51,026 nucleotides of DNA from Roseibium sp. TrichSKD4 (lineage in GTDB: Bacteria; Pseudomonadota; Alphaproteobacteria; Rhizobiales; Stappiaceae): assembly GCF_000148725.1 (NCBI RefSeq), contig NZ_GL476310.1, forward strand, positions 316,512-367,537, given 5' to 3'. Shown here in pieces: positions 14,884-29,371 of this stretch. The stretch's first letter is position 1. Each line of letters begins with the position of its first letter. The translations under genes were made by a program, and so were the position numbers. Below the pieces are notes generated by a model. The model was not told where the DNA came from. It made no database searches and worked only from the letters and a program-made list of their open reading frames with translations.

Positions 14884-15597
14884 TCAGGTTTCCGCGTCAA
14901 CCGAAAGGGTGACGCGATCACCCGCAAACCATGTTGCGCCATATTCAACAGGTTGCCCATCGCTCGTTATGTTGATCGATATTGACTTTAGGACAGGCGC
15001 GTTTTCTGGAATTTTCAGTTTCAGGGCGACAAGGTTGGTCGCGCGCTTCGATGTCAGGCGTGTGCTGGCGCGTGTGTAGTCGTTTACGCCGCAAGAATTG
15101 AGGGCATGTGTGGTAGATCCAGTTGCTTGAATGTGTCTAAGCAAATCGGGGTACGGCCCGGCTGGAAAAGCCGAGCGAAACACAGCGAGCGGAACATCAT
15201 CTGCATATGAAATGCCCTCGATGACATGTACTTTTTCCCCCTCAACCAGCTTGAGCGCATTTCTTTCTTTTTCGTTTGCACTGCGGGTCTCTGAGGCGGT
15301 TATTTCCCGTGACCCAGCTTTGCCAATTGCGGAGAGGTTTTGGTGAAATCGGACGCGTTTTCCAATTGGGTAGTCAATTGGCGTGGTTGCGACAAAGGCC
15401 CCAGCGCCCCGCCGTGTAAAAATCACACCATCGTCAACAAGTGCGGCGAGGGACTGACGAACAGTGTGACGGTTGACTCCAAAGCGAGCGGCGAGTTGGG
15501 CCTCTGTCGGCAATTTATCGCCCGACTTGTAGTGAGCATTTGAGATATCCGAAAACACCGTATCTCGGATGGTCTTCCAAAGTGGTTCGCGGGCCAT
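14884..15597 (-). CDS. phnF: Phosphonate metabolism transcriptional regulator PhnF (GntR/HutC)
   Basis: A 237-residue GntR-type regulator. The N-terminal winged helix holds DKLPTEAQLAARFGVNRHTVRQSL and VFTRRGAGAFVA. The UTRA ligand domain follows from about residue 85, with LKSISINITSDGQPVEYGATWFAGDRV near the end split by strands typical of the HutC group. Divergence from phnG identifies it as PhnF, the local repressor of the carbon-phosphorus lyase operon. A palindrome over the phnG promoter is its probable site. It probably also controls its own transcription from the same 115-base gap. Confidence 0.9.
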   Translation of the reverse strand: MAREPLWKTIRDTVFSDISNAHYKSGDKLPTEAQLAARFGVNRHTVRQSLAALVDDGVIFTRRGAGAFVATTPIDYPIGKRVRFHQNLSAIGKAGSREITASETRSANEKERNALKLVEGEKVHVIEGISYADDVPLAVFRSAFPAGPYPDLLRHIQATGSTTHALNSCGVNDYTRASTRLTSKRATNLVALKLKIPENAPVLKSISINITSDGQPVEYGATWFAGDRVTLSVDAET

Positions 15598-15632
15598 GTG
15601 GGTCCTGTCATCAAAACTTCACCAAAAGATCA

Positions 15633-15661
15633 TTGCCAGTGAAAGGGCAACTCGATAATAT
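15633..15661 (+). promoter_or_regulatory. Promoter of the phnG-L operon
   Basis: TTGCCA at 15633-15638, a 17-base spacer and TAATAT at 15656-15661 form a good sigma-70 type promoter. Transcription would begin near 15668, about 45 bases before the phnG GTG and inside the palindrome. I saw no clear Pho box, but could not score one. Confidence 0.6.
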
Positions 15662-15690
15662 TTGTCTAGTTGTATAGTAATCTAGACAAA
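15661..15690. promoter_or_regulatory. Palindromic operator, probable PhnF site
   Basis: TTTGTCTAG (15661-15669) and CTAGACAAA (15682-15690) are perfect 9-base inverted arms around a 12-base centre that itself carries TTGTATAG. The element begins at the last base of the -10 box and covers the expected start site, the right place for a repressor. HutC-group regulators bind short palindromes of this style; assignment to PhnF is inference. Confidence 0.6.
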
Positions 15691-15712
15691 TTTACAAGAT
15701 GTCGAGGATCTC

Positions 15713-16165
15713 GTGCCTGATCAAACGGAAGAAAGCATCGCTAAACGGAAGTCCTGGATGTCAACGTTGGCGAAGGGGAAATCAGCGTCGATTGGCAAAT
15801 TGTTTCCCGATCTTCCAGTGTATGAAGTCATTCGTGCGCCGGAAACAGGAACCGTGATGGTCCGCGGCCGGACCGGTGGAACCGGCGCGTCGTTCAATCT
15901 AGGGGAAATGACTGTGACCCGATGTGCCGTACGACTGCCAGATGGAACCACTGGGCATGGGTATGTTCAGGGGCGAGACGGAGAGCATGCAACCCGGGCG
16001 GCTATCATTGACGCCCTCATGCAAGGTGTCGATGCCGAGAGAGTGGCGGCGGAGGTGATCGCCCCGCTTGAAGCAGAGTTCGAGGCATCTCGCCAAAGCC
16101 GCGCGGAAAAAGCGGCTGCGACGAAGGTGGACTTCTTCACGATGGTTCGAGGAGAAGATCAATGA
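15713..16165 (+). CDS. phnG: C-P lyase subunit PhnG
   Basis: A 150-residue PhnG. It starts at GTG with GAGG five bases upstream and shows the family core RKSWMSTLAKG, VMVRGRTGGTGASFNLGE and RCAVRLPDG. PhnG joins PhnH, PhnI and PhnJ in the cytoplasmic complex that couples alkylphosphonate to ATP and then cleaves the C-P bond. It overlaps phnH by 4 bases. Confidence 0.95.
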   Translation: MPDQTEESIAKRKSWMSTLAKGKSASIGKLFPDLPVYEVIRAPETGTVMVRGRTGGTGASFNLGEMTVTRCAVRLPDGTTGHGYVQGRDGEHATRAAIIDALMQGVDAERVAAEVIAPLEAEFEASRQSRAEKAAATKVDFFTMVRGEDQ

Positions 16166-16773
16166 ACATGCATAAGACGGCTGGCGGAGGGTTCAAAGAC
16201 GCGCCTGTTGAGGCTGCGCGAAGTTTTCGGATTCTGATGAACGCCATGGCCCGTCCCGGCAGCATCTCGCAACTGGATGCGATAGAGCCACCAGATCCAC
16301 TTTCCCCTGCAGCTGGCACTGCTCTTTTGACGCTCGCTGATCCCACAACACCTGTTTTTCTAGCCGGAGCGGCAGATACGGAAACGGCGAGGAATTGGGT
16401 CGCATTTCATATTGGTGCGCCAATCATAGAGCCATCGGATCTTCGCTCCTTTGCTGGGCGTGGCAGACCACCGGGGGAGGTGTTCGCTGTAGGGGCGTGG
16501 GCAGACTTACGGGGGCATCTCGAGGCCCTTCCGATAGGACGGCCCGATTATCCGGATCGCTCGGCAACTTTGATTGCAGATTTACCGACAATCGCTAACT
16601 CCGGAGCAAAATTATCTGGTCCTGGGATCCGGGCCATTGAAGCTCTGTCCCTGCCTGAAACGGAGGTGTTTCAGGAGAATAACGCACGCTTCCCACTTGG
16701 TTTTGATGTGTTTTTCACCTCCGGCTCCTTGGTGGCTGCACTGCCAAGGTCAACGCGAGTGGAGGCTGCTTGA
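16162..16773 (+). CDS. phnH: C-P lyase subunit PhnH
   Basis: 203 residues of normal PhnH length with the family text FRILMNAMARPGSI near residue 22 and a PLGFDVFF segment near the C-terminus. PhnH is a dimeric, catalytically silent subunit of the PhnGHIJ core, needed for the purine-displacing step that forms 5-triphosphoribosyl phosphonate. The start overlaps phnG by 4 bases, and the stop is directly followed by the phnI ATG. Confidence 0.95.
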   Translation: MNMHKTAGGGFKDAPVEAARSFRILMNAMARPGSISQLDAIEPPDPLSPAAGTALLTLADPTTPVFLAGAADTETARNWVAFHIGAPIIEPSDLRSFAGRGRPPGEVFAVGAWADLRGHLEALPIGRPDYPDRSATLIADLPTIANSGAKLSGPGIRAIEALSLPETEVFQENNARFPLGFDVFFTSGSLVAALPRSTRVEAA

Positions 16774-17856
16774 ATGTATGTAGCAGTAAAAGGCGGCGAA
16801 CGGGCGATCGACAATGCGCATGCCTGGCGGGATGAAGAGCGACGGGGTGACACCTCAATCCCAGAGGTGTCATTGGCTCAAATTCGAGAACAGTTGGCTC
16901 TTGCGGTTAATCGTGTGATGGCCGAGGGCTCTCTGTTTGATGCAGACTTGGCGGCTTTGGCCATTAAGCAGTCTCGGGGAGATTTGATTGAGGCCATATT
17001 TCTGATCCGTGCTTATCGCACGACGTTACCGCGTTTCGGGGCAAGCCGTCCTGTAGCGACATCAAAGATGGCCGTCGATCGCCGTGTGTCGGCAACATTT
17101 AAGGATCTGCCGGGTGGGCAAATCCTTGGGCCAACTTTTGACTACACCCATCGGCTTTTGGACTTCAAACTGGCTGCGGAAGGTAAAGCCCCGGAAGTTA
17201 AAATCGCGCCGGCCACCAAGGAAGATGTGCCGCATGTCACAAGCTTTCTCAACAAGGATGGCTTGATTGAAACCGAACTGCCGTCAAACGAAGAGCCACG
17301 TGACCTGACGCGGGAACCCTTGGAGTTTCCGGCAGGACGCGATTTGCGCCTCCAGTCAATGGCGCGGGGAGATGAGGGGTTCATCCTGTCACTCGCTTAC
17401 TCCACCCAGCGCGGGTACGGGCGCACTCATGCCTTTGTCGGTGAATTGAGGATCGGACGGGTCGCGGTCGAAATGGACATCCCTGAACTGGGGTTTGCCA
17501 TTGAGATCGGAGAGGTTGAACTTACTGAATGCGAAACCGTCAATCAGTTCAAGGGCTCTAAAACTGAGCCACCGCAGTTCACGCGTGGCTATGGATTGGT
17601 GTTTGGTCAATCTGAGCGCAAGGCCATCGCCATGTCACTGCTTGATCGAAGCCTGCGTTGGCAGGAACTGGGTGAGGACTTTGTCGGCGCACCTGCGCAA
17701 GACGAAGAGTTTGTTCTGGCCCATTGCGACAACATTCAGGCCACCGGTTTTCTGGAGCATATCAAACTGCCGCATTACGTCGATTTTCAAAGTGAATTGG
17801 AACTTGTCCGTCGTCTGCGTACCGAGGCAGAAGCGGCACAGGAGGCAGCCGAATGA
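16774..17856 (+). CDS. phnI: C-P lyase subunit PhnI
   Basis: 360 residues. It begins MYVAVKGGERAIDNAHA, the conserved PhnI start, and contains IKQSRGDLIEAIFLIRAYRTT and the later GYGLVFGQSERKAIAMSLLDR. PhnI is the nucleosidase-like subunit that removes adenine from ATP and attaches the phosphonate to ribose. The ATG follows phnH without a gap, and its end overlaps phnJ by 4 bases. Confidence 0.95.
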   Translation: MYVAVKGGERAIDNAHAWRDEERRGDTSIPEVSLAQIREQLALAVNRVMAEGSLFDADLAALAIKQSRGDLIEAIFLIRAYRTTLPRFGASRPVATSKMAVDRRVSATFKDLPGGQILGPTFDYTHRLLDFKLAAEGKAPEVKIAPATKEDVPHVTSFLNKDGLIETELPSNEEPRDLTREPLEFPAGRDLRLQSMARGDEGFILSLAYSTQRGYGRTHAFVGELRIGRVAVEMDIPELGFAIEIGEVELTECETVNQFKGSKTEPPQFTRGYGLVFGQSERKAIAMSLLDRSLRWQELGEDFVGAPAQDEEFVLAHCDNIQATGFLEHIKLPHYVDFQSELELVRRLRTEAEAAQEAAE

Positions 17857-18731
17857 ACGCGCAAGCTTACAATTTTGCCTATTTGGATGAGCAAACGAAG
17901 CGAATGATCCGGCGCGCCATCTTAAAAGGCCTCGCGATCCCGGGATATCAGGTGCCGTTTGCAAGTCGGGAAATGCCAATGCCCTATGGTTGGGGCACCG
18001 GCGGCGTGCAGGTGACGGCAGCCTGCCTTGTGCCCGAAGACAAACTGAAGGTGATTGATCAGGGGGCGGACGATACGACCAACGCTGTCAGTATTCGCAA
18101 GTTTTTTGAAAAGACGGCGGGTGTTGAAGTAACGGAGGCAACCGGTGAGGCAAGTCTCATTCAAACGCGCCATCGCATCCCGGAACAAGACCTGAGCAAG
18201 GATCAGATCCTCGTCTATCAGGTGCCAATCCCCGAGCCGTTACGCTTTCTTGAGCCACGCGAAACAGAGACGCGGAAAATGCACGAACTGGAAGAATACG
18301 GTCTCATGCATGTGAAACTTTACGAGGACATTTCCCGGCACGGTGAGATTTCCACTTCCTATGCCTATCCGGTGAAAGTCGAAGGGCGCTATATCATGGA
18401 CCCGTCTCCAATCCCGAAATTCGATAATCCCAAACTGTCAGACAGTTCTGCAATTCAGCTGTTTGGTGCGGGGCGGGAGCAGCGCATCTACGCTTTGCCT
18501 CCTTACACAGATGTCCAAAGTCTCGATTTTGAAGATTATCCCTTTGAGGTGTCAAAGGCCCCGCATGACTGTGATCTTTGCGGTGCAAAGGACACCTATC
18601 TGGATGAAGTGATCACCGATGATGCGGGAAGCCGCATGTATGTGTGCTCTGATACCGATTTCTGCTCCACCAGGCGCCAGAACGGTCATGTTGGCCGCTT
18701 GGGTACACCCGTTTCAAGCGAGGTCGCGTGA
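17853..18731 (+). CDS. phnJ: C-P lyase radical-SAM subunit PhnJ
   Basis: 292 residues. PhnJ cleaves the C-P bond of ribose-linked phosphonate using S-adenosylmethionine and a 4Fe-4S cluster, releasing the alkane. The cluster cysteines are visible near the C-terminus as CDLC, then Cys after 21 residues and Cys after 5 more (YVCSDTDFC), exactly the CX2CX21CX5C pattern of the family. The MPYGWGTGG segment near residue 43 is also characteristic. It overlaps phnI and phnK by 4 bases each. Confidence 0.96.
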   Translation: MNAQAYNFAYLDEQTKRMIRRAILKGLAIPGYQVPFASREMPMPYGWGTGGVQVTAACLVPEDKLKVIDQGADDTTNAVSIRKFFEKTAGVEVTEATGEASLIQTRHRIPEQDLSKDQILVYQVPIPEPLRFLEPRETETRKMHELEEYGLMHVKLYEDISRHGEISTSYAYPVKVEGRYIMDPSPIPKFDNPKLSDSSAIQLFGAGREQRIYALPPYTDVQSLDFEDYPFEVSKAPHDCDLCGAKDTYLDEVITDDAGSRMYVCSDTDFCSTRRQNGHVGRLGTPVSSEVA

Positions 18732-19528
18732 TGACCGCGGCGGTTGCTCAGATACAGACCAATTCCATTGAAGATGCGCCTCTGCTCAAGGTGCAAAATC
18801 TCGCCAAGTTTTATGGCAGCCGGGTTGGATGCCAAAATGTGTCCTTTGATCTTTTCCCCGGTGAGGTGTTGGGCATTGTCGGGGAAAGTGGGTCAGGAAA
18901 ATCCACCCTGTTGGCAGCGCTGGCTGGGCACCACCAACCGGACCGTGGAACCATTCACTATCGTGATCAGGATATTCTGGCGCTTCAGGAAAGTGAGCGT
19001 CGGCGATTGAGCCGAACTGAGTGGGCGTTTGTCCACCAGAACCCGCGCGATGGACTTCGTTTGGGTGTTAGCGCTGGTGGCAATGTTGGCGAACGCTTGA
19101 TGTCTGTTGGCAGTCGGCACTACGGCAATATCCGCACGCAAGCACTGGATTGGCTGGAACGGGTCGAGATTTCACCAGACCGGATCGATGACCGCCCGTC
19201 CTCCTTTTCCGGAGGAATGCAGCAACGTCTTCAAATCGCCCGCAACTTGGTGACCAGTCCAAAGTTGGTTTTCATGGACGAACCGACAGGGGGGCTGGAT
19301 GTCAGTGTTCAGGCACGTCTTTTGGACTTGCTTCGCGGTCTTGTGCGAACTCTCGGACTGTCCGTGATCATCGTCACCCACGATTTGGCTGTTGTCCGCC
19401 TTTTGGCAGATCGCTTGATGGTCATGAAATCTGGTGAAGTGGTGGAGCAGGGGCTAACAGATCAAGTGTTGGACGACCCACAACACGGGTATACCCAGCT
19501 TCTTGTATCCTCGGTTTTGCAGGTGTGA
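18728..19528 (+). CDS. phnK: C-P lyase ABC-type ATPase PhnK
   Basis: 266 residues with Walker A GESGSGKST, signature SFSGGMQQRLQIARN and Walker B LVFMDEPTGGLD. PhnK is not a transporter component; it docks on PhnJ in the C-P lyase complex. It may start at GTG 18728 or ATG 18731, both overlapping the phnJ stop. It overlaps the possible GTG start of phnL. Confidence 0.94.
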   Translation: MMTAAVAQIQTNSIEDAPLLKVQNLAKFYGSRVGCQNVSFDLFPGEVLGIVGESGSGKSTLLAALAGHHQPDRGTIHYRDQDILALQESERRRLSRTEWAFVHQNPRDGLRLGVSAGGNVGERLMSVGSRHYGNIRTQALDWLERVEISPDRIDDRPSSFSGGMQQRLQIARNLVTSPKLVFMDEPTGGLDVSVQARLLDLLRGLVRTLGLSVIIVTHDLAVVRLLADRLMVMKSGEVVEQGLTDQVLDDPQHGYTQLLVSSVLQV

Positions 19529-19530
19529 AA

Positions 19531-20202
19531 ATGATCCAGATTGAAAACCTGTCAAAAAGCTTCACGCTCCACAATCAGGGTGGTGCCGTCATACCGGTCA
19601 TGTGCGGAGCGACATTAACCGTAGAGCCGGGCGAATGTGTCGGCCTGATCGGGCAGTCGGGCGCGGGCAAGTCCACCTTGATGCGGATGATCTACGGCAA
19701 CTATCTGGCAGCTGGCGGGCAAATCCGGATTGGCAACGTAGGTGTTGTCGGCGCAACGCCTCGCGAGCTGATCCGTTTGCGCCGGGAAACGCTTGGCTAT
19801 GTCAGTCAGTTCCTGCGTGTGGTTCCACGCGTGCCAACGGTCGATGTTGTTGCAGACCCTTTGCTTCAATTGGGTGTATCAGAACGTCAGGCACGTTGTC
19901 GGGCAGAAGAACTGCTCAAGCGATTGAATATACCAGAGCGGCTCTGGAGCTTGTCACCGACCACCTTTTCCGGTGGAGAGCAGCAGCGGGTGAATATCGC
20001 GCGAGGTTTCGCGCATCCGTATCCAGCCCTGTTGCTGGATGAGCCAACTGCAAGTCTTGATGCGGCCAATCGCAAGGTGGTTCTGACGCTGATCGAAGAA
20101 GCCAAATCCCGCGGAGCTGCGGTTCTCGGCATATTCCACGACCAATCAGCCCGCGATCAGGTCTGCGACCGTCTCGTAGACGTTACAGCCTTCGCCCCCT
20201 GA
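19531..20202 (+). CDS. phnL: C-P lyase ABC-type ATPase PhnL
   Basis: About 223 residues: start [18 protein letters not shown], Walker [10 protein letters not shown], signature [16 protein letters not shown] and Walker [12 protein letters not shown]. PhnL pairs with PhnK on the PhnGHIJ core. I preferred ATG 19531, with AGGTG five bases upstream, over GTG 19525. It is the last phn gene here. phnM, whose pyrophosphatase is needed for the pathway, does not follow; the next feature is a tRNA on the other strand. Confidence 0.93.
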
Positions 20203-20340: not shown

Positions 20341-20684
20341 GTTTCGTCAAGCATTGCTGCCGGCGAGGCCCGCAATATACTCATGAAGGGTGGGAGCGCA
20401 AGTGGGGTGGCAGGTTTTTTCCCGCAGGTGGATAAGTTTTGTTCTCAAACGGATTTTTGCCCGTTTGAGAACAATGCGAACTGATGCGCTCCATCATTTC
20501 TTTCTGACGGAGTTTTGATCAGGTGTCACTGGGAATTCCGCTGTATTTAGCCCATTTGTAGCAGCGTTGCGGTATTGTCATTGAACAATCCGACAAGGGC
20601 AATTAAAGGTAAAGCCTGATTGCAGTCCCCCTGACAAATGGGGGTGGCGTCAAGCCGCATGAGTTTACCGCGGAGATTGTGAAT
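20341..20684. other. Intergenic region with a strong inverted repeat
   Basis: The 344 bases between tRNA-Ser and a small membrane protein hold no supportable gene. The tRNA promoter must lie at its left end. The main landmark is the 14-base inverted repeat at 20439-20474. Confidence 0.5.
20439..20474. repeat. Perfect 14-bp inverted repeat with an 8-base loop
   Basis: TTGTTCTCAAACGG (20439-20452) and CCGTTTGAGAACAA (20461-20474) are exact reverse complements around ATTTTTGC. Neither side has a run of T, so it is not a normal terminator. It could be a large operator, a processing hairpin on the tRNA precursor side, or one copy of a dispersed palindromic repeat. Confidence 0.7.
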
Positions 20685-21008
20685 ATGACCGTTGTTCGAT
20701 TTGTTGTGAGACTGTTTGGTTATGCTCTGTTGGCATCTGCGGTGATTGCGCTTATCGCCGACGGAAGCTACTCCATCGCGCAGTCGGAGCTGGCTACACG
20801 CTCATTCGGTCAGGTTTGGTTCACATATTCTGCTGAGAGCCTCAATCTCGCGCAGGCTGTGATCCAGCGCCATGTCAGCCCGGTGATCTGGGACCCGATC
20901 ATTCAAACCTTGCTGACTTGGCCTGTTTGGGCGGTGACCGGTCCTTTGGCGATCCTTTTCCTTTGGCTGACCACCCCCGGTGAGCAACTGAAGCGGGCTT
21001 ACGCCTGA
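20685..21008 (+). CDS. Small two-helix membrane protein of unknown function
   Basis: About 107 residues with hydrophobic helices near residues 5-25 and 80-98, and a hydrophilic loop in between (SYSIAQSELATRSFGQVWF). I do not recognise a named domain. Both helices, a GGAG site upstream of the start and ordinary composition support a real gene. GTG 20679 is the alternative start. It lies about 90 bases upstream of the MsrA-like gene on the same strand and may be co-transcribed with it. Confidence 0.65.
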   Translation: MTVVRFVVRLFGYALLASAVIALIADGSYSIAQSELATRSFGQVWFTYSAESLNLAQAVIQRHVSPVIWDPIIQTLLTWPVWAVTGPLAILFLWLTTPGEQLKRAYA

Positions 21009-21097
21009 CTATTTGCCTCTCGTTCTGAAGTCGCGCTTGTGGTCATCCTGTCTGCCTTTCATAAAGAGGCAGGTGAATAGTTTGCGCGAGGCCGTTG

Positions 21098-21742
21098 ATG
21101 TCTTTCATGACCATGCTCAGCCGAAAATTTGAGCTTCCCAAGCCGAATGAGGCACTACCCGGGCGCAGCGAACGCGTTTGCCCATATGACAAACACGCCA
21201 AACTTGGCAGGCCACTTCTTCCGCCCTACCCGGATAGCTATCGGTCTGTCATTCTCGGGATGGGCAGTTTCTGGGCGGCTGAGGCACTGTTCTGGTCTCT
21301 TCAGGGCATCTACGTCACAGCTGTCGGGTTTTCTGGCGGGCATACGCCAAACCCGACCTACAACGAAGTCGGAACGGGGCGAACTGGACATGCTGAAGTT
21401 GTTCAAGTGGTCTACGATCCGGACCTTATAGCCCTTGAAGACATTTTGAAGATATTTTGGGAAGGCCATAACCCCACACAAGGCATGCGGCAGGGCAATG
21501 ATGTGGGCACGCAATATCGGTCATTGGTTTTGGTTGACCGGCAGGACGACCTTGAAGCAGCAGCGGCCGCAAAAGAGCGATATCAGCGAACATTGAATGA
21601 AGCAGGCGTCAAGTCGACGATCACCACTGTGATCGATGTTCAATCCGAATTCTATTTCGCCGAGGACTATCACCAACAATATTTGATAAAAAATCAGGGT
21701 GCAGATAAAGCCGTTAGAGGCTTGCAAGTGCCATTCGAATAG
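21098..21742 (+). CDS. MsrA-family protein with catalytic Cys replaced by Ser
   Basis: About 214 residues with the whole MsrA fold: YRSVILGMG, then GFSGGHTPNPTYNEVGTGRTGHAEVV, IFWEGHNPTQGMRQGNDVGTQYRS and FYFAEDYHQQYL across the family order. Active MsrA has GCFWG at the catalytic site; here the codon at 21266-21268 is AGT, giving GSFWA (Ser57). The usual cysteine in the EVCTGRTGHAE segment is Gly, and the cysteine-containing tail that recycles the enzyme is absent. The only Cys is residue 28. Peptide methionine sulfoxide reduction as known is therefore unlikely. It may be a binding pseudoenzyme. The start at ATG 21098 has GCGAGG six bases upstream. Confidence 0.88.
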   Translation: MSFMTMLSRKFELPKPNEALPGRSERVCPYDKHAKLGRPLLPPYPDSYRSVILGMGSFWAAEALFWSLQGIYVTAVGFSGGHTPNPTYNEVGTGRTGHAEVVQVVYDPDLIALEDILKIFWEGHNPTQGMRQGNDVGTQYRSLVLVDRQDDLEAAAAAKERYQRTLNEAGVKSTITTVIDVQSEFYFAEDYHQQYLIKNQGADKAVRGLQVPFE

Positions 21743-21879
21743 GTGGCTTAAAGTAATAAATATAGAAATAAGTACTGTAAAATATATCAATATGAAGTAT
21801 TTTAAAGAATAAATCGATAGTTTTAAGGTCTGTTAATCATAATATCGGACGCTCTACTCAGGATTGGGTGGAGGGTCTT

Positions 21880-22215
21880 GTGAAAATTAAACTCTCCGGA
21901 CTTTTGATCGCAGGTTATTTCGGCCTTGCGTTGATCTTGGTTCTGCTCGCTGGCCTGATGCCTTCGGAGCATGGGCGCGTCGCGGTCTTGCAATTTCCCT
22001 GGAGTGACCAGTCGGCAGTCGAGACTGTCGCACGGGCAGGGGGGCAGATTAATTCCGCGAGCGCACATGAATACGTTGCGATCACCCAATCAGAGAACAA
22101 GGGGTTTGTCTGGCACCTTTATCAGGAAGGGGCCGGAGTCGTGATTTCCGCATCTGCGGCGGCTGCGTGTGTGCGCCTGATTAAGACCGTCAAAAGGACT
22201 GACACTAATGGATGA
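21880..22215 (+). CDS. Small single-helix membrane protein coupled to a chemoreceptor
   Basis: About 111 residues. GTG 21880 was chosen because GGAGGG lies 6 bases upstream. One N-terminal helix (LLIAGYFGLALILVLLAGLM) is followed by an approximately 80-residue domain, probably periplasmic, ending in SASAAAACVRLIK. No family recognised. Its last 8 bases overlap the start of the chemoreceptor gene, so the two are translated together, and a helper role in sensing or assembly is plausible (inference). Confidence 0.65.
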   Translation: MKIKLSGLLIAGYFGLALILVLLAGLMPSEHGRVAVLQFPWSDQSAVETVARAGGQINSASAHEYVAITQSENKGFVWHLYQEGAGVVISASAAAACVRLIKTVKRTDTNG

Positions 22216-23701
22216 CCAAGAAGCAACTGAGATGTCCAGTGTTGATCAGCTGAGACACGCCTATTCTCTCAGACTGATCTACTTTTTGTGGCTGAATGTT
22301 CCGATAGTTGTGGGAACCGGATGGCTCGTGGGCCATGCTCCCATCACGTTTTTAGCCGGGATCGCGCTGTTGTTGGCTGTGGTTTCCACGGCTGTTTGGT
22401 TCAAGCGCGGCATCGCCAGTGAAACACGATATGTAACTTCCATCTCCATGGCGGCAATGGCTGGTCTGTTTGTGGCAGCGTTAGCGACACCGGATCAGGC
22501 TAATTCGCTCCAACTTGATGGGCATATGTATTTCTTTGTGGTGTTCGCTATCCTTGCCGGTTGGGTGGATTGGCGTCCGCTTGCGGCATATGCGGGTTTT
22601 GTTGCGCTCCATCACCTGTCATTGAATTTTGTCTACCCCACACTGGTGTTTCCCTATGGATCGGACCTGACACGGGTCGTTTTTCACGCCGTGATGGTTG
22701 TTGCTCAGTTTGCCTTCTTGTTCGCAGCGGTCAGTAAGCTGGCGAGCCTGCTTGCCCATAATGATGAGGCTAAGCAGAGCATCGAGAAAGTGCACCGGGA
22801 AACGATTGCGGCTTCTGCCTCTGAGGAAGAGCGCCGCGAGCAGGAGCACGCGGAGCAGACGCGCATCAATGAAATGATCGAAATGTTCCGTTCTGATATC
22901 GAAGCCAAACTGACTGCAGTGATTGCCAAAGTCAGTGATATGAGAAGCGCATCTCAAGAACTGAGTGGGGTCGCAGACGTCACGTCTCAGCGGGTCGCGT
23001 CCGCAACTGATGCCTCAGATCGTGCGTCGTCTAGTTCGGGAGCAGTTGCATCGGCGGCACATGAACTGTCTCAGTCGATTAGCGACATCTCCCAGCAGGT
23101 AGCTCAGGCCAAGCATATTGTGGTTTCGGCTTCAAAAAGCGCTGAATCCAGCAACGAGAAAGTGGCTGGTCTGGCTGAAGCAGCAAATCGCATTGGCGAA
23201 GTTGTGACCCTCATTCAAGCGATCGCAGAACAGACCAATCTTCTGGCGCTGAATGCAACAATCGAGGCTGCGCGGGCGGGAGAAGCTGGAAAGGGGTTTG
23301 CGGTCGTGGCTACCGAGGTCAAGGAACTGGCTATGCAGACCTCCAAGGCGACTGAAGAAATAGGCTCCCAGATATCAGCCATTCAGGCCGAGACGGAGGA
23401 AGTGGTGGATGCCATTGGAGAGATTTCGTCCACAATGGGCGAAGTGAGCAATTGCACGACTTCAATTGCAGATGCAGTAGAGCAGCAAAACGAACTAAAC
23501 ACCCGAATCTCTCATAATCTCGATGACGCTGTCAGCGGGGCCACTCGTGTTTCTGAAAACGTTTCGACGGTGTCAGATTCTGTCCAAGGCACCATGGGAG
23601 CTGCACAAACCGTTGCGGAATCGGCTGAGTTCCTTGAGCGGGAAGCCAATGAAATGCGCGGTTCTATCGAAGCATTCCTGCAGGATGTACGCGCTGCATA
23701 A
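22208..23701 (+). CDS. Methyl-accepting chemotaxis protein with a multi-helix membrane sensor
   Basis: A 497-residue receptor. The first 190 residues form about six closely spaced membrane helices with hardly any periplasmic loop, then a coiled coil with no HAMP domain evident, then the signalling domain. The conserved tip reads IAEQTNLLALNATIEAARAGE, followed by KGFAVVATEVKELA. The sensor part has histidines in or near helices (LDGHMYFF, ALHHLSLNF), which suggests that the signal is sensed within or near the membrane. The start overlaps the small membrane protein gene. It should signal through CheA/CheW encoded elsewhere. Confidence 0.9.
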   Translation: MDDQEATEMSSVDQLRHAYSLRLIYFLWLNVPIVVGTGWLVGHAPITFLAGIALLLAVVSTAVWFKRGIASETRYVTSISMAAMAGLFVAALATPDQANSLQLDGHMYFFVVFAILAGWVDWRPLAAYAGFVALHHLSLNFVYPTLVFPYGSDLTRVVFHAVMVVAQFAFLFAAVSKLASLLAHNDEAKQSIEKVHRETIAASASEEERREQEHAEQTRINEMIEMFRSDIEAKLTAVIAKVSDMRSASQELSGVADVTSQRVASATDASDRASSSSGAVASAAHELSQSISDISQQVAQAKHIVVSASKSAESSNEKVAGLAEAANRIGEVVTLIQAIAEQTNLLALNATIEAARAGEAGKGFAVVATEVKELAMQTSKATEEIGSQISAIQAETEEVVDAIGEISSTMGEVSNCTTSIADAVEQQNELNTRISHNLDDAVSGATRVSENVSTVSDSVQGTMGAAQTVAESAEFLEREANEMRGSIEAFLQDVRAA

Positions 23702-23889: not shown

Positions 23890-25719
23890 ATGAACGCGAA
23901 ATCCATGCCTGCAAATCAATTGGCTCCTGGAACGGTGCTGCTGGTCGATGCCCTGAAGGACCGAGCTGCACGGCTGTTTCAGTCACCGCTGGACGTCATC
24001 ACATGCAATGATCTGACACGTGTTTCTGAGGCCCTTCAAGCTGTCGAAAGGGCTCGAAAAAGCGGCAAGCATGTCGCTGGTTATCTGACATACGAACTGG
24101 GTTATGCGTTTGAAGAAAAACTGGCTGGGCGTTGGAAAAACACCGGTGAGCCTTTGCTGTGGTTTGGTGTTTACGAGGGTCCTGTATCCCTGTCTCTCAA
24201 AGAAACGCGGGAGCTGTTGAGCGGGACAGAGCCAAGGGAAAGTGGCAAGGTGTCCGTCTCCGGTTTCGATATGGATAAGCGGGAGTATGAAGATTCTTTT
24301 CGCGAGGTTCAAAACAACTTGGCGAAAGGCGACATCTATCAGGTCAACCTCACGATGCGGGCCGGTCTGCAACATGAAGGCGCGCCGGAGCATCTGTTTT
24401 CTGACCTTTTGAGTCGGCAGCCGGTGGCACATGCCGCTTTGGTGAAAACAGTCGACCGATCCATCCTGTCAGTATCTCCAGAACTGTTTTTGGAAAGACG
24501 CGCGAACACACTGCGAACGCGCCCCATGAAAGGAACCGCTGGCCGAGGTCGCACTATTGCGGAAGATCGTTCAATTACAGCGAATTTGGCGAGAGACCCA
24601 AAACAGCGTGCAGAAAACACCATGATTGTGGACTTGATGCGCAATGACCTCTCGCGCATTTGCAGGGCCGGGTCGGTGAAGGTGACGTCGCTTTGTGATG
24701 TTGAGCGTTATCGCACGGTCCACCAAATGACATCCACCATCGAAGGCGAGCTGGAAGCTGATGTTCAGTTTCCGAAAATCATAGAGCATCTTTTTCCTTG
24801 TGGGTCGATCACAGGTGCGCCGAAGCTGAGCGCCATGATGATAGCCGACCGGCTGGAAACATCGCCGCGCGGGGTCTACACCGGCTCAATTGGCGCAATG
24901 GAACCAAACGGAGACTTTGCGTTCAATGTGGCAATCCGCACGCTGGACCTGAAATCAAATGGGACAGGCGTTGCCGGAACCGGATCTGGTGTCGTCTTCG
25001 ATTCAGGGGCCGGGCCTGAATATGACGAATGTGCGCTCAAGCTGAAGTTTTTGTCGTCAGACTTACCGGGTGTTGGTCTCATAGAAACTTTTGCTTATCT
25101 GCCCGAAGAAGGCTTTCTCTTGCTGGAACGTCATTTAAACCGGCTTGCGCGCTCCGCCAAGTATTTGGGATTTGTGTTTGAGGAAGAGCGCCTGCGGGGA
25201 GAGCTTTTCAAGGAGGTTAAAAGCTCAAGCGGTGCATTGCGCGTGCGTCTTGAAATGGCCGAAGACGGAACGGCTAGTATTCAGGCTATGCCGCTGGTGA
25301 CTGCGAGCGATGACACGGTCTGGAAACTCTGTCTGGCGGATGAGCCCGTCGATTCTGGAAATGCGTACCTGTTTCATAAGACAACACATCGGGCCTTTTA
25401 CGATGAGACACGAACCAGAATGGCCGCGGAACTCAGCGCTCAAGAAGTCTTGTTCGTCAATGAAAACGGCTTTTTGACGGAAGGGAGTTTCACAACCTTG
25501 TTCGTCAAGAAGAACGGCAAGCTTCTCACACCTGCCTTGGAGCATGGGCTGTTGCCGGGCATCTTGCGGGAAGCGCTTCTGGACAAGCGCTTAGCCTATG
25601 AGGCGGACCTGAGGCCGGAAGACTTGATAACCGCTGAAGCGCTTTTTGTCGGAAATTCAGTTCGCGGGCTGATCCGCTCTGAGTTGATGGCAGTGTCAGC
25701 TCTAAAGCAAGCTTCCTGA
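23890..25719 (+). CDS. pabB: Aminodeoxychorismate synthase component I fused to aminodeoxychorismate lyase (PabB-PabC)
   Basis: 609 residues in two parts. Residues 1-390 are the chorismate-binding PabB enzyme (DIYQVNLTMR, RPMKGTAGRGR, DLMRNDLSRIC, PCGSITGAPKLSAM, GSGVVFDS). From about 395 a class IV aminotransferase-fold PabC follows, with the PLP lysine in HKTTHRAFYDETR and a second motif LTEGSFTTLFV. One chain thus makes 4-amino-4-deoxychorismate from chorismate and converts it to p-aminobenzoate for folate. The glutaminase PabA is not in the window. ATG at codon 6 is an alternative start. Confidence 0.93.
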   Translation: MNAKSMPANQLAPGTVLLVDALKDRAARLFQSPLDVITCNDLTRVSEALQAVERARKSGKHVAGYLTYELGYAFEEKLAGRWKNTGEPLLWFGVYEGPVSLSLKETRELLSGTEPRESGKVSVSGFDMDKREYEDSFREVQNNLAKGDIYQVNLTMRAGLQHEGAPEHLFSDLLSRQPVAHAALVKTVDRSILSVSPELFLERRANTLRTRPMKGTAGRGRTIAEDRSITANLARDPKQRAENTMIVDLMRNDLSRICRAGSVKVTSLCDVERYRTVHQMTSTIEGELEADVQFPKIIEHLFPCGSITGAPKLSAMMIADRLETSPRGVYTGSIGAMEPNGDFAFNVAIRTLDLKSNGTGVAGTGSGVVFDSGAGPEYDECALKLKFLSSDLPGVGLIETFAYLPEEGFLLLERHLNRLARSAKYLGFVFEEERLRGELFKEVKSSSGALRVRLEMAEDGTASIQAMPLVTASDDTVWKLCLADEPVDSGNAYLFHKTTHRAFYDETRTRMAAELSAQEVLFVNENGFLTEGSFTTLFVKKNGKLLTPALEHGLLPGILREALLDKRLAYEADLRPEDLITAEALFVGNSVRGLIRSELMAVSALKQAS

Positions 25720-25740: not shown

Positions 25741-26391
25741 TCAGGCTTCTGGCCAAGGTTCAACCGTCAGCTCCGGCCAAAGCACCTTCATGCGGGCACC
25801 TTTTTCTATATGCGTCTTGCGATTGTCGAGCGCCGTATTTGGAACCAGCCGCATTGCAAAAATGTTGGACAGTCCAAAAGGAGCGTGCACGTGCATACGC
25901 TCATCCGCATCAAGACGAACGGCAACGGCATGGGTTTTCGCGGCATAGTTCACCAGGCTTTCCATGGAGCAGCCAAGAGGCGGATAGCAGCATCCAAATC
26001 GCTTTTCATACCAAAGATGAACTCTGGCTTGATTGCGGGTTTCGATCCGGTCTGCAAGGTCGGGCAGGGCGGCTTCAACCTTCTTAATGACCCGGTCTTC
26101 CGCCTCATAGCTGAGATCTGAGCCATCGAAATAAACGATGTCATAGTCCTTCAACCCGTGCTCATGGGGGCGATCCGTCATGATGTTCCACATGGTCTGA
26201 TAGATGGCGCCTGAAACCAGCCAGCAGTCCGGAAGATCAAGCGATCGCATGGTTTCCAACAGCCGCATTAACGTTGGAACAGAGCGTACCACGGCGCTAA
26301 TGCTTTGCTTACGTTCATCTTCACTCGAACGGTAAGGGTCAGCCAGCCTTTCCCAGTCCTTCAGTGCCGGTGCCATCTCTGTTGCTTGCAT
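25741..26391 (-). CDS. Nucleotidyltransferase family protein (COG3575/PF06042)
   Basis: 216 residues matching a family of uncharacterised nucleotidyltransferase-fold proteins. Diagnostic pieces are DCWLVSGAIYQTMWN, GLKDYDIVYFDGSDLSYEAED, ARVHLWYEKRFG and the C-terminal ESLVNYAAKTHAVAVR. The acidic pair DYD in the second piece matches the metal-binding Asp residues of the fold. The substrate is unknown. It converges on pabB with 21 bases between stops. Confidence 0.82.
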   Translation of the reverse strand: MQATEMAPALKDWERLADPYRSSEDERKQSISAVVRSVPTLMRLLETMRSLDLPDCWLVSGAIYQTMWNIMTDRPHEHGLKDYDIVYFDGSDLSYEAEDRVIKKVEAALPDLADRIETRNQARVHLWYEKRFGCCYPPLGCSMESLVNYAAKTHAVAVRLDADERMHVHAPFGLSNIFAMRLVPNTALDNRKTHIEKGARMKVLWPELTVEPWPEA

Positions 26392-26953: not shown

Positions 26954-29371
26954 TTATCCGCGTAGCGTTCCGCCAGTTGCTTTTTCTACCGATGCAACGA
27001 TTTTCTTCGACACGGCTTCAATGTCTTCATCGGTCAAGGTCTTTTTGACCGGTTGCAGAAGAACATCAATCGCCAGCGATTTTTGGTTCTCGTCAACACC
27101 CTTGCCCTTGTAGATGTCAAACAGTGTCACATCGCTGATAAGGGTCTTGTCGGCCCCACGTGCCGCTTTGAGCAGCTTTTCAGCTTCCACGCCGTCATCC
27201 ACGACAAAGGCAAAGTCACGGCGGACCGGCATCAAGTCGGAGGCCTGCAATTTGCCCTTGGAGCGTGTGGCCTTGTTCTTTGGCTGCGGAAGTGCGTCGA
27301 GATAAACCTCAAACGCGACAACCGGTCCATCCAGATCAAGGTCTTTCAGGATGCGCGGATGGATTTCGCCAAAGACCGCAAGAGTGTTTTTCGGGCCTAG
27401 CTTCAAAGTGCCAGAACGACCGGGGTGGAAGTAATCTGGTGCATCGCGATAGACCTGCAATTTTTCAACCGGCGCACCGATTGCAGAAAGGGCTGCTTCT
27501 GCATCAGCCTTTGCATCAAACACGTCCACCGCATCCGAAGTACCGCTCCAATGGCGACCTGACCCTGCATGGCTTGCGGTGCCACGACGAATGCCAGCAG
27601 CGACCATTTTTTGATCATCCGGTTGGTCACCCGTGAAAATCTGTCCCACCTCAAAAAGGGCAGCATCCGGGAAGCCACGGTCCGCATTGCGCTGACCTGC
27701 TGTCAGAAGGCCGGGCAGTAGGCTCGGACGCATGTCCGACATGTCGGAGGAGATCGGATTGGCAAGCACGAGCGCATCGGCCCCACCGTCAAACGTGACG
27801 GCCTGATCGTGCGAAATGAAGGACCAGGTTACAGCCTCGTTCATGCCACGGGAGGCAAGAGACCGGCGGGCTTTTGAGCGTCTGATTTGGCCAGTTGTGA
27901 GAACGCGCGTTGTTACCGTGTCTGAGCGTGGCAACGGCGTGGAGGGCACGCGGTCAAGGCCGAGAATGCGCACAATCTCTTCCACAAGATCAGCCTTGCC
28001 TTCAATGTCTGGACGCCAGCTCGGCGGCGCCACTTTCACGACATCTCCGGTGCCGGAAATCCAGAAGCCGAGGGACTTCAAAGTAAGGTTCATTTCCGGA
28101 ACAACGGTGTCGATGCCCGACAGACGTTTGACCTCCGCATAAGGGAAATCGATAATCCGGTTGGTTTCGGGAACCTCACCCGCTTGCACCACGTCCGACG
28201 GTTCGCCGCCACATAGGTCCAGAACCATCTGAGTGGCGGCCTCAAGGCCCGGCAGCATGTAGTCAGGGTCAACGCCGCGCTCAAACCGATACCGAGCATC
28301 GGTATTGACGCCAAGTTTGCGGCCAGTTGCAGCAATGCCGTTTTCGTCCCAAAGCGCAGATTCAATCAGCACATTGGTGGTTTCTTCCGTGCAGCCAGAA
28401 ATTTCACCACCGAGAATACCGCCCAGGCTTTCAACGGCGTTATCGTCAGCAATCACACAGACGCTGTCATCAACCGTGTAGCTCTTGCCGTTCAAGCCAT
28501 CGATGGTTTCGCCGTCCTTGCCACGGCGAACAACCAGATCGCCATGCACCTTGTCAGCGTCGAAAACGTGCAGCGGACGACCCTGATCGAAGGTCATGTA
28601 GTTGGTGATGTCCACCAGCGTGTTGATTGGGCGCAGGCCAATGGCCACCAGACGATCTTGCATCCATTTAGGCGAAGGGCCGTTCTTCACACCCTTGACC
28701 AAGCGAAGGCCAAACGCCTTGCAAAGAGCAGGAGTGTCACCGAACTCCAGATTCACATTGGTCGGGCACGGGAAGGTGCCTCGAACCTGCTTAAGTGGCC
28801 GCTCTTTCAACTTGCCGATCCCGGCTGCAGCCAGATCGCGTGCAATACCGTAAACCCCGGTACAATCCGGACGGTTCGGTGTCAGGCCAATCTCGATAAT
28901 CGGATCATCAAGGCCTGCCCACTGTGCATAAGAAACGCCCACAGGCGCATCTTCCGGAAGGTCGATGATGCCATCATGCTCTTCAGACAATTCCAGCTCG
29001 CGCTCAGAGCACATCATGCCGAAACTTTCCACGTCACGGATTTTGCCGACTGCGAGCGTGAAGTCGAGACCAGGAACATAGTCACCCGGCCGTCCCAGTA
29101 CGCCGACCAGCCCTTTGCGGGCATTCGGAGCACCGCATACGATCTGCAGCAGCTCACCGCTGCCATTGTCGACCTTGAGAACCTTCAAGCGGTCGGCATT
29201 CGGATGTTGTTCCGCATCCACTACCTTCGCGATTGTAAAAGGCTTCAAGCGTCCGGCACGGTTGGTTACTTCCTCGACCTCAAGGCCGATCATGGTCAGC
29301 TTTTCAACGATCTCGTCGAGGCTGGCTTCGGTCTCAAGATGATCCTTGAGCCATGACAAAGTGAATTTCAT
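26954..29371 (-). CDS. pheT: Phenylalanine-tRNA ligase beta subunit PheT
   Basis: 805 residues, full length for PheT. Order: start [21 protein letters not shown], the tRNA-binding EMAP-like domain (about 40-150, with [14 protein letters not shown]), the B3/B4 editing domain ([22 protein letters not shown]), the B5 domain, and the C-terminal anticodon-binding domain ending in [19 protein letters not shown]. With PheS it forms the cytoplasmic heterotetramer that charges tRNA-Phe. It follows pheS on the same strand but a membrane-protein gene lies between them. Confidence 0.97.

Follow-up and report, generated by a model that had tools for sequence, protein, structure and literature searches.

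Pseudoenzymes are a familiar feature of signalling families, and among the matches listed from the open PubMed Central (PMC) literature, which leaves most subscription papers outside, no title or abstract described a cysteine-less methionine sulfoxide reductase A (MsrA) or any other methionine sulfoxide reductase pseudoenzyme. Here we analyze an MsrA homologue of Roseibium sp. TrichSKD4 in which the residues of thiol catalysis have been replaced. It is encoded in a 51,026-nucleotide stretch of assembly GCF_000148725.1 (contig NZ_GL476310.1, positions 316,512 to 367,537, forward strand; hereafter, the window), and all coordinates below are positions within this stretch.

The closest described relatives are the canonical long-type MsrA enzymes (Pfam PF01625), such as those of Escherichia coli (PDB 1ff3) and cattle (1fva), which carry a nucleophilic cysteine in a GCFW motif and one or more resolving cysteines in the C-terminal tail. 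A figure legend for the Neisseria meningitidis enzyme assigns roles to Cys51, Glu94, Tyr82, and Tyr134, and an engineered C51S form of that MsrA, part of PilB, holds substrate with a serine at the nucleophile position amid the other three residues (3bqf). In a study of Haloferax MsrA, the nucleophile was required for reductase activity, and its exchange from Cys to Ser made the ubiquitin-like modification induced by dimethyl sulfoxide undetectable (PMC5587910). A 2026 rhizobial study names GCFW as the motif conserved in the MsrAs that it describes (PMC13272141), and another article mentions an MsrA and an MsrB of Roseibium sp. with neighbouring accession numbers (PMC4247871). The window protein resembles the C51S mutant in having Ser at the nucleophile position with Glu94, Tyr82, and Tyr134 in place, but differs from it in being natural, known here from its sequence, and in having lost the resolving cysteines as well. 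Compared with the canonical enzymes it is without Cys51, Cys86, and the resolving cysteines, and its changes at other near-invariant columns include G60A, R63A, and D125N.

By its profile matches, the 214-residue product of the open reading frame at 21098–21742 (stop codon included; forward strand, with an in-frame TTG immediately 5′ at 21095) is unambiguously an MsrA by descent: it matches Pfam PMSR (PF01625) at E = 8e-52 (176 bits against a curated cut-off of 23.7) and NCBIfam msrA at E = 3e-52 (176.9 bits against 108.1), and its predicted fold is that of MsrA. For residue positions we use what we take to be the E. coli numbers. The motif reads GSFWA (21263–21277), with a Ser codon, AGT at 21266–21268, in place of the nucleophile Cys51 and Ala in place of the next Gly, and Gly (21371–21373) replaces Cys86 within EVGTGRTGH, giving EVGTG. 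The recast C-terminal tail (21695–21739), NQGADKAVRGLQVPFE, contains no cysteine, has Lys (21707–21709) for the resolving Cys198 and Phe for the second resolving cysteine, and ends where the latter would sit. Neither the nucleophilic cysteine of GCFW nor any resolving tail cysteine is thus present. All six pocket residues checked are intact: Phe52, Trp53, Tyr82 (21359–21361 by alignment), the general acid Glu94 (21395–21397), and Asp129 and Tyr134, which lie within NDVGTQYRS (21500–21517). An earlier note on this DNA had read the Ser codon and the Gly at the EVCTG cysteine correctly. Its claim that all catalytic and recycling cysteines are lost holds for Ser51, Gly86, and the Lys/Phe tail, but a single cysteine, Cys28, is still present in the N-terminal extension; likewise, the tail that it reported as missing has lost its cysteines but is itself present in recast form.

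The altered protein recurs in relatives. In a scan of an 84,980-species genome collection, 80 of 503 relatives were read; 79 had the motif cysteine, and only Roseibium sediminis lacked Cys51. The MsrA1 (as we call the family's housekeeping MsrA) of R. sediminis, 64% identical to the window protein, has GSFWA and EVGTG and contains no cysteine anywhere. We then read the best MsrA copy, regardless of its motif, in the family, using the window protein as the query against 87 genomes from around R. sediminis. Long-type MsrA was found in 83 of them, and in the resulting alignment of 84 rows (83 genomes plus the window) position 51 was Cys in 81 and Ser in three: the window, R. sediminis (G001), and genome G045, whose more eroded MsrA1 has two cysteines at non-catalytic places. 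The presence of Ser51 in three separate sequences argues against chance, and recurrence in separate genomes leaves practically no room for a sequencing or assembly artefact. The earlier note had held that this was not a random mutation and had named a lone mutated strain as the finding that would refute it; the nearest relative, R. sediminis, shares Ser51, Gly86, and Lys198, and Ser51 is found again in G045. More widely, we used codon-specific pattern scans, in which the order-level pattern was G-S-[F/Y]-W-[G/A]-any-E and the class-level pattern narrower, so that they detect only motifs near GSFW. The class scan for Ser encoded by AGY (385 genomes) matched in four genomes, with an MsrA only in R. 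sediminis; the order scan for AGY (397 genomes) matched in 11, with an MsrA only in R. sediminis and G045; and the order scan for Ser encoded by TCN (397 genomes) matched in 19, with no MsrA among the matches. Plasmid records with a match numbered 1083, all below 60% identity.

Gene order places the window protein at the ancestral MsrA1 position. Upstream lies orf109 (20679–21008, forward), a small conserved protein with no Pfam family at E = 0.001; downstream follow orf115 (21868–22215, forward), also small and without a Pfam family at that threshold and present in most loci but not all, a chemoreceptor-like protein (22208–23701, forward), named by reading its sequence and the usual downstream neighbour, an aminodeoxychorismate synthase-like protein that we take to be pabB/pabC (23890–25719, forward), a nucleotidyltransferase of the Pfam family NTP_transf_6 (25741–26391, reverse), and what is presumably PheT (26954–29371, reverse), which served as a species marker. 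The order orf109–msrA–orf115–chemoreceptor–pabB–nucleotidyltransferase–pheT is common to the window, R. sediminis, and G045, and relatives with a normal MsrA show the same order with some gaps. All 12 of the loci L001–L012 have orf109 upstream and pabB downstream, with the chemoreceptor and orf115 in part of them only. The window MsrA is therefore the family's housekeeping MsrA1, altered in its ancestral place; the conserved order means that the standard MsrA1 itself changed and not a spare copy, and it rules out a paralogue next to a normal MsrA1. The GSFWA clade beside a normal MsrA, for which the earlier note had suggested looking, thus turned out to be an in-place orthologue of normal MsrA1.

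The three cysteine-less sequences may have arisen once or twice. Among the states common to the window and R. sediminis are Ser51, Gly86, Lys198, and Asn125 (window numbering), and the two group with support of 96/95 even when the trait columns are removed. G045 joins them at 100/96 in a plain MsrA1 tree, with a long-branch warning, and support for this grouping drops to 58/64 under a mixture model that leaves out the trait columns. A clade of all three was rejected by the PheT tree (approximately unbiased (AU) test, P = 0.0096). Speaking against two separate losses, the MsrA1 tree in turn rejected the placement of G045 with G044 and G003 (AU P = 0.0037), although long branches may pull here. 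The trees would fit either a single origin combined with allele transfer or two losses. LepA was unreliable as a species marker for G045: its LepA (L238) is 99% identical to that of G044 (L244), compared with 56% for pabB of the same genomes, which suggests a transfer of lepA.

The cysteine-less MsrA1 is under purifying selection, with constraint partly relaxed. The window and R. sediminis genes align over 214 of 214 codons without gaps, at nonsynonymous and synonymous proportions of difference (pN and pS) of 0.24 and 0.78, the latter saturated, and their C-termini fall at the identical aligned place. That the frame is open and constrained at saturated silent divergence again fits the earlier note's view of a change that is not random. 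In a crude neutral simulation with uniform substitutions and no indels, 2 of 2000 frames were still open at 0.5 substitutions per site, where mean identity was 36%, and none of 2000 at 1 substitution per site, where it was 17%; the observed identity is 64%. The losses are also focused. Near-invariance among 75 normal copies (G013 excluded) defines 88 columns. Of these, 17 have lost their usual residue in the window, 19 in R. sediminis, and 23 in G045, compared with at most six, and a median of zero, for a normal copy left out in turn. Fourteen of these columns form the thiol machinery (the motif except Phe and Trp, Cys86, and the tail); they were grouped post hoc, so Fisher values are descriptive. 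The window lost 11 of the 14 but 6 of the 74 elsewhere (Fisher P = 1e-7), R. sediminis 10 of 14 and 9 of 74, and G045 11 of 14 and 12 of 74, a concentration in keeping with the consistent loss of thiol chemistry that the earlier note had described. The focus was weaker in the MsrA1 copies of G017, G018, and G019 (P = 0.018, 0.094, and 0.025).

MsrA1 is altered or absent mainly in genomes that also have another MsrA. In R. sediminis this other MsrA forms an MsrB–MsrA pair at a different locus (L133, 5890–6857; Pfam SelR and PMSR), and the closest PDB entries to it are Sinorhizobium meliloti MsrA3 (4gwb) and Mycobacterium tuberculosis MsrA (1nwa). We use MsrA3, after 4gwb, as our own label for such second genes, which belong to the same Pfam family as MsrA1, keep GCFWG and a tail cysteine, are 32–41% identical to MsrA1, and are often linked to msrB. 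The counts that follow cover the 87 family genomes, the window being represented here by its own stretch alone. MsrA3 (at least 70% identity) occurs in 13 of the 87, with msrB adjoining it in nine of the 13 within the stretches read; the match in G035, at 70%, has one stop within the alignment, and its realigned part (query 3–163) has none. MsrA1 is absent from three of the 13 (G028, G035, and G060), where a single stretch runs from orf109 to the next gene of the family locus (a chemoreceptor-like gene in G060, pabB in G028 and G035) and contains no MsrA in between. In two (G001 and G045) it has no cysteine at the catalytic places; in G026 the changes lie at Cys86 and at the second tail cysteine, in G036 at the second tail cysteine, and in G017, G018, and G019 at Tyr82, Cys86, Tyr134, and the tail. 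Of the 74 genomes without MsrA3, 72 have a normal MsrA1; the tail is out of frame in G013, and no MsrA1 was found in the fragmentary G034. Altered or missing MsrA1 is thus found in 10/13 genomes with MsrA3 and 1/73 others (Fisher P = 8.6e-10, kinship ignored and G013 left out; P = 4e-9 with G013 counted as non-canonical), and among bearers of MsrA1 only, altered copies number 7/10 and 0/72 (P = 3e-8, kinship ignored). A tree of MsrA3 was too weak to distinguish vertical descent from transfer.

We consider it reasonably probable that the housekeeping MsrA1 of this lineage was turned in place into a protein incapable of thiol-based sulfoxide reduction and was retained as a pseudoenzyme, in the sense of a protein that has lost its catalytic residues and stays under selection; inactivity itself we infer from the former. 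The window MsrA1 is almost certainly inactive as a reductase, a second MsrA probably made the loss tolerable, and MsrA1 was likely kept for a non-redox role. In the order of events that we infer, MsrA3, with or without MsrB, would carry out the repair of methionine-S-sulfoxide; MsrA1, superfluous for repair, would lose its thiol chain and be deleted in some lineages; and the window lineage would keep it, the likeliest reason being some benefit from a scaffold interaction or from binding without turnover. What the role might be is a more tentative matter. By analogy with the C51S precedent, and judging from the remaining pocket, the protein could hold methionine-S-sulfoxide, protein-bound or free, for instance to sense it, to carry it, or to act as a chaperone-like binder, to which we give somewhat less than an even chance. 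The stronger form of this idea, in which evolution would have repeated the laboratory C51S exchange and produced a natural reader of methionine sulfoxide that recognizes without reducing, serving as damage sensor, carrier, or holdase after the second MsrA took over, is somewhat unlikely. Should the cysteine-less MsrA1 bind methionine sulfoxide, it would amount to a natural reader of methionine oxidation; otherwise, the locus would be a clear case of redundancy freeing a housekeeping enzyme. The family presents a natural series at one gene position (normal, altered in pocket or tail, cysteine-less, and gone) that is linked to a second MsrA.

Several observations weigh against the reading as a retained pseudoenzyme. 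Uncorrected MsrA1 protein distance relative to that of pabB and the nucleotidyltransferase was 0.55–0.78 (mean 0.64) in 28 pairs from eight normal loci, chosen from many, whereas the three pairs of cysteine-less copies gave 1.08–1.15, about 1.7 times normal, which indicates that constraint is partly relaxed; compared with normal copies, altered copies bearing Cys51 gave 0.72–0.83 (G026 and G036) and 0.93–1.14 (G017 and G019). The pocket, which the earlier note had called well kept, is so in the window but not in R. sediminis (Y134F) or G045 (Y82H and D129L). Three of the 13 genomes with MsrA3 have a normal MsrA1 (G008, G009, and G082), and the association of MsrA1 state with MsrA3, though consistent and suggestive, is not significant once kinship is counted: independent pairs on the LepA tree agreed in a mean of 5.4 of 7, with 0 against and 1.6 without difference (median P = 0.0625), and those on the PheT tree in 3.6 of 5, with 0.1 against and 1.4 without difference (median P = 0.125). 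These trees held 51 (LepA) and 52 (PheT) of 88 possible rows (87 genomes plus the window), including some hand-picked genomes, and G034 was coded as non-canonical. G045 may, moreover, be an independent case. The raised divergence, the pocket losses, the missing MsrA1 in three of the 13 genomes, and the graded copies of G036, G026, and G017–G019 would all suit slow decay, in which MsrA3 took over and MsrA1 is heading for deletion, its residual conservation avoiding harmful misfolding. We regard this as unlikely, given a frame that is open and gapless at saturated silent divergence, the same aligned end in both proteins, and losses that are focused and not scattered.

Other roles for a retained protein fare less well still. 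A structural or protein–protein role unrelated to methionine sulfoxide, for example with thioredoxin or a neighbouring gene product, would account for the retention of the protein in G045 despite the loss of Tyr82 and Asp129 from its pocket and for the conserved neighbourhood, but the window protein keeps its pocket residues and the neighbourhood is identical where MsrA1 is normal; we consider such a role improbable. That the protein is an enzyme by another route, through Ser as the nucleophile, the residual Cys28, or dismutation or hydrolysis, is very improbable: the window protein does retain Glu94, the general acid, along with the tyrosines, but Cys28 is absent from R. sediminis, and in Haloferax MsrA the Cys-to-Ser change falls on the residue required for reductase activity and abolishes detectable ubiquitin-like modification (PMC5587910). 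Moonlighting in a ubiquitin-like ligase function, as in Haloferax, is unlikely, the Cys-to-Ser mutant being inactive in it there. The reading as a retained pseudoenzyme is thus the one that we prefer.

Further MsrA variants were seen in the family. In G017–G019 (L152, L149, and L170) a second recast MsrA1 lineage has Tyr82 changed to Gly, Cys86 to Ala or Ser, and Tyr134 to Phe, with a remodelled tail whose two cysteines sit in an altered sequence context. It resembles the window protein in being an MsrA1 that has been altered, here in pocket and tail and in genomes with MsrA3, but it keeps Cys51 (GCYWG), has cysteines in its altered tail, and may still be active. The MsrA1 of G013 (L188) has Asp at the Glu94 column in addition to its out-of-frame tail, and an assembly error is possible. 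A small divergent MsrA-like protein, GGCHWCTEAVFQ, with neither FW nor YHQQY, is encoded at L135 (5360–5875) and L194 (7409–7894); in G045 it lies directly 3′ of MsrA3.

Around MsrA1, a chemoreceptor-like gene lies 3′ in 27 of the 30 loci L102–L131, mostly preceded by a small protein, as at 21868–23701 of the window. Farther upstream in the window, 14884–20202 holds genes resembling a phosphonate C–P lyase cluster, a regulator followed by what we take, from their sequences, to be phnG to phnL.
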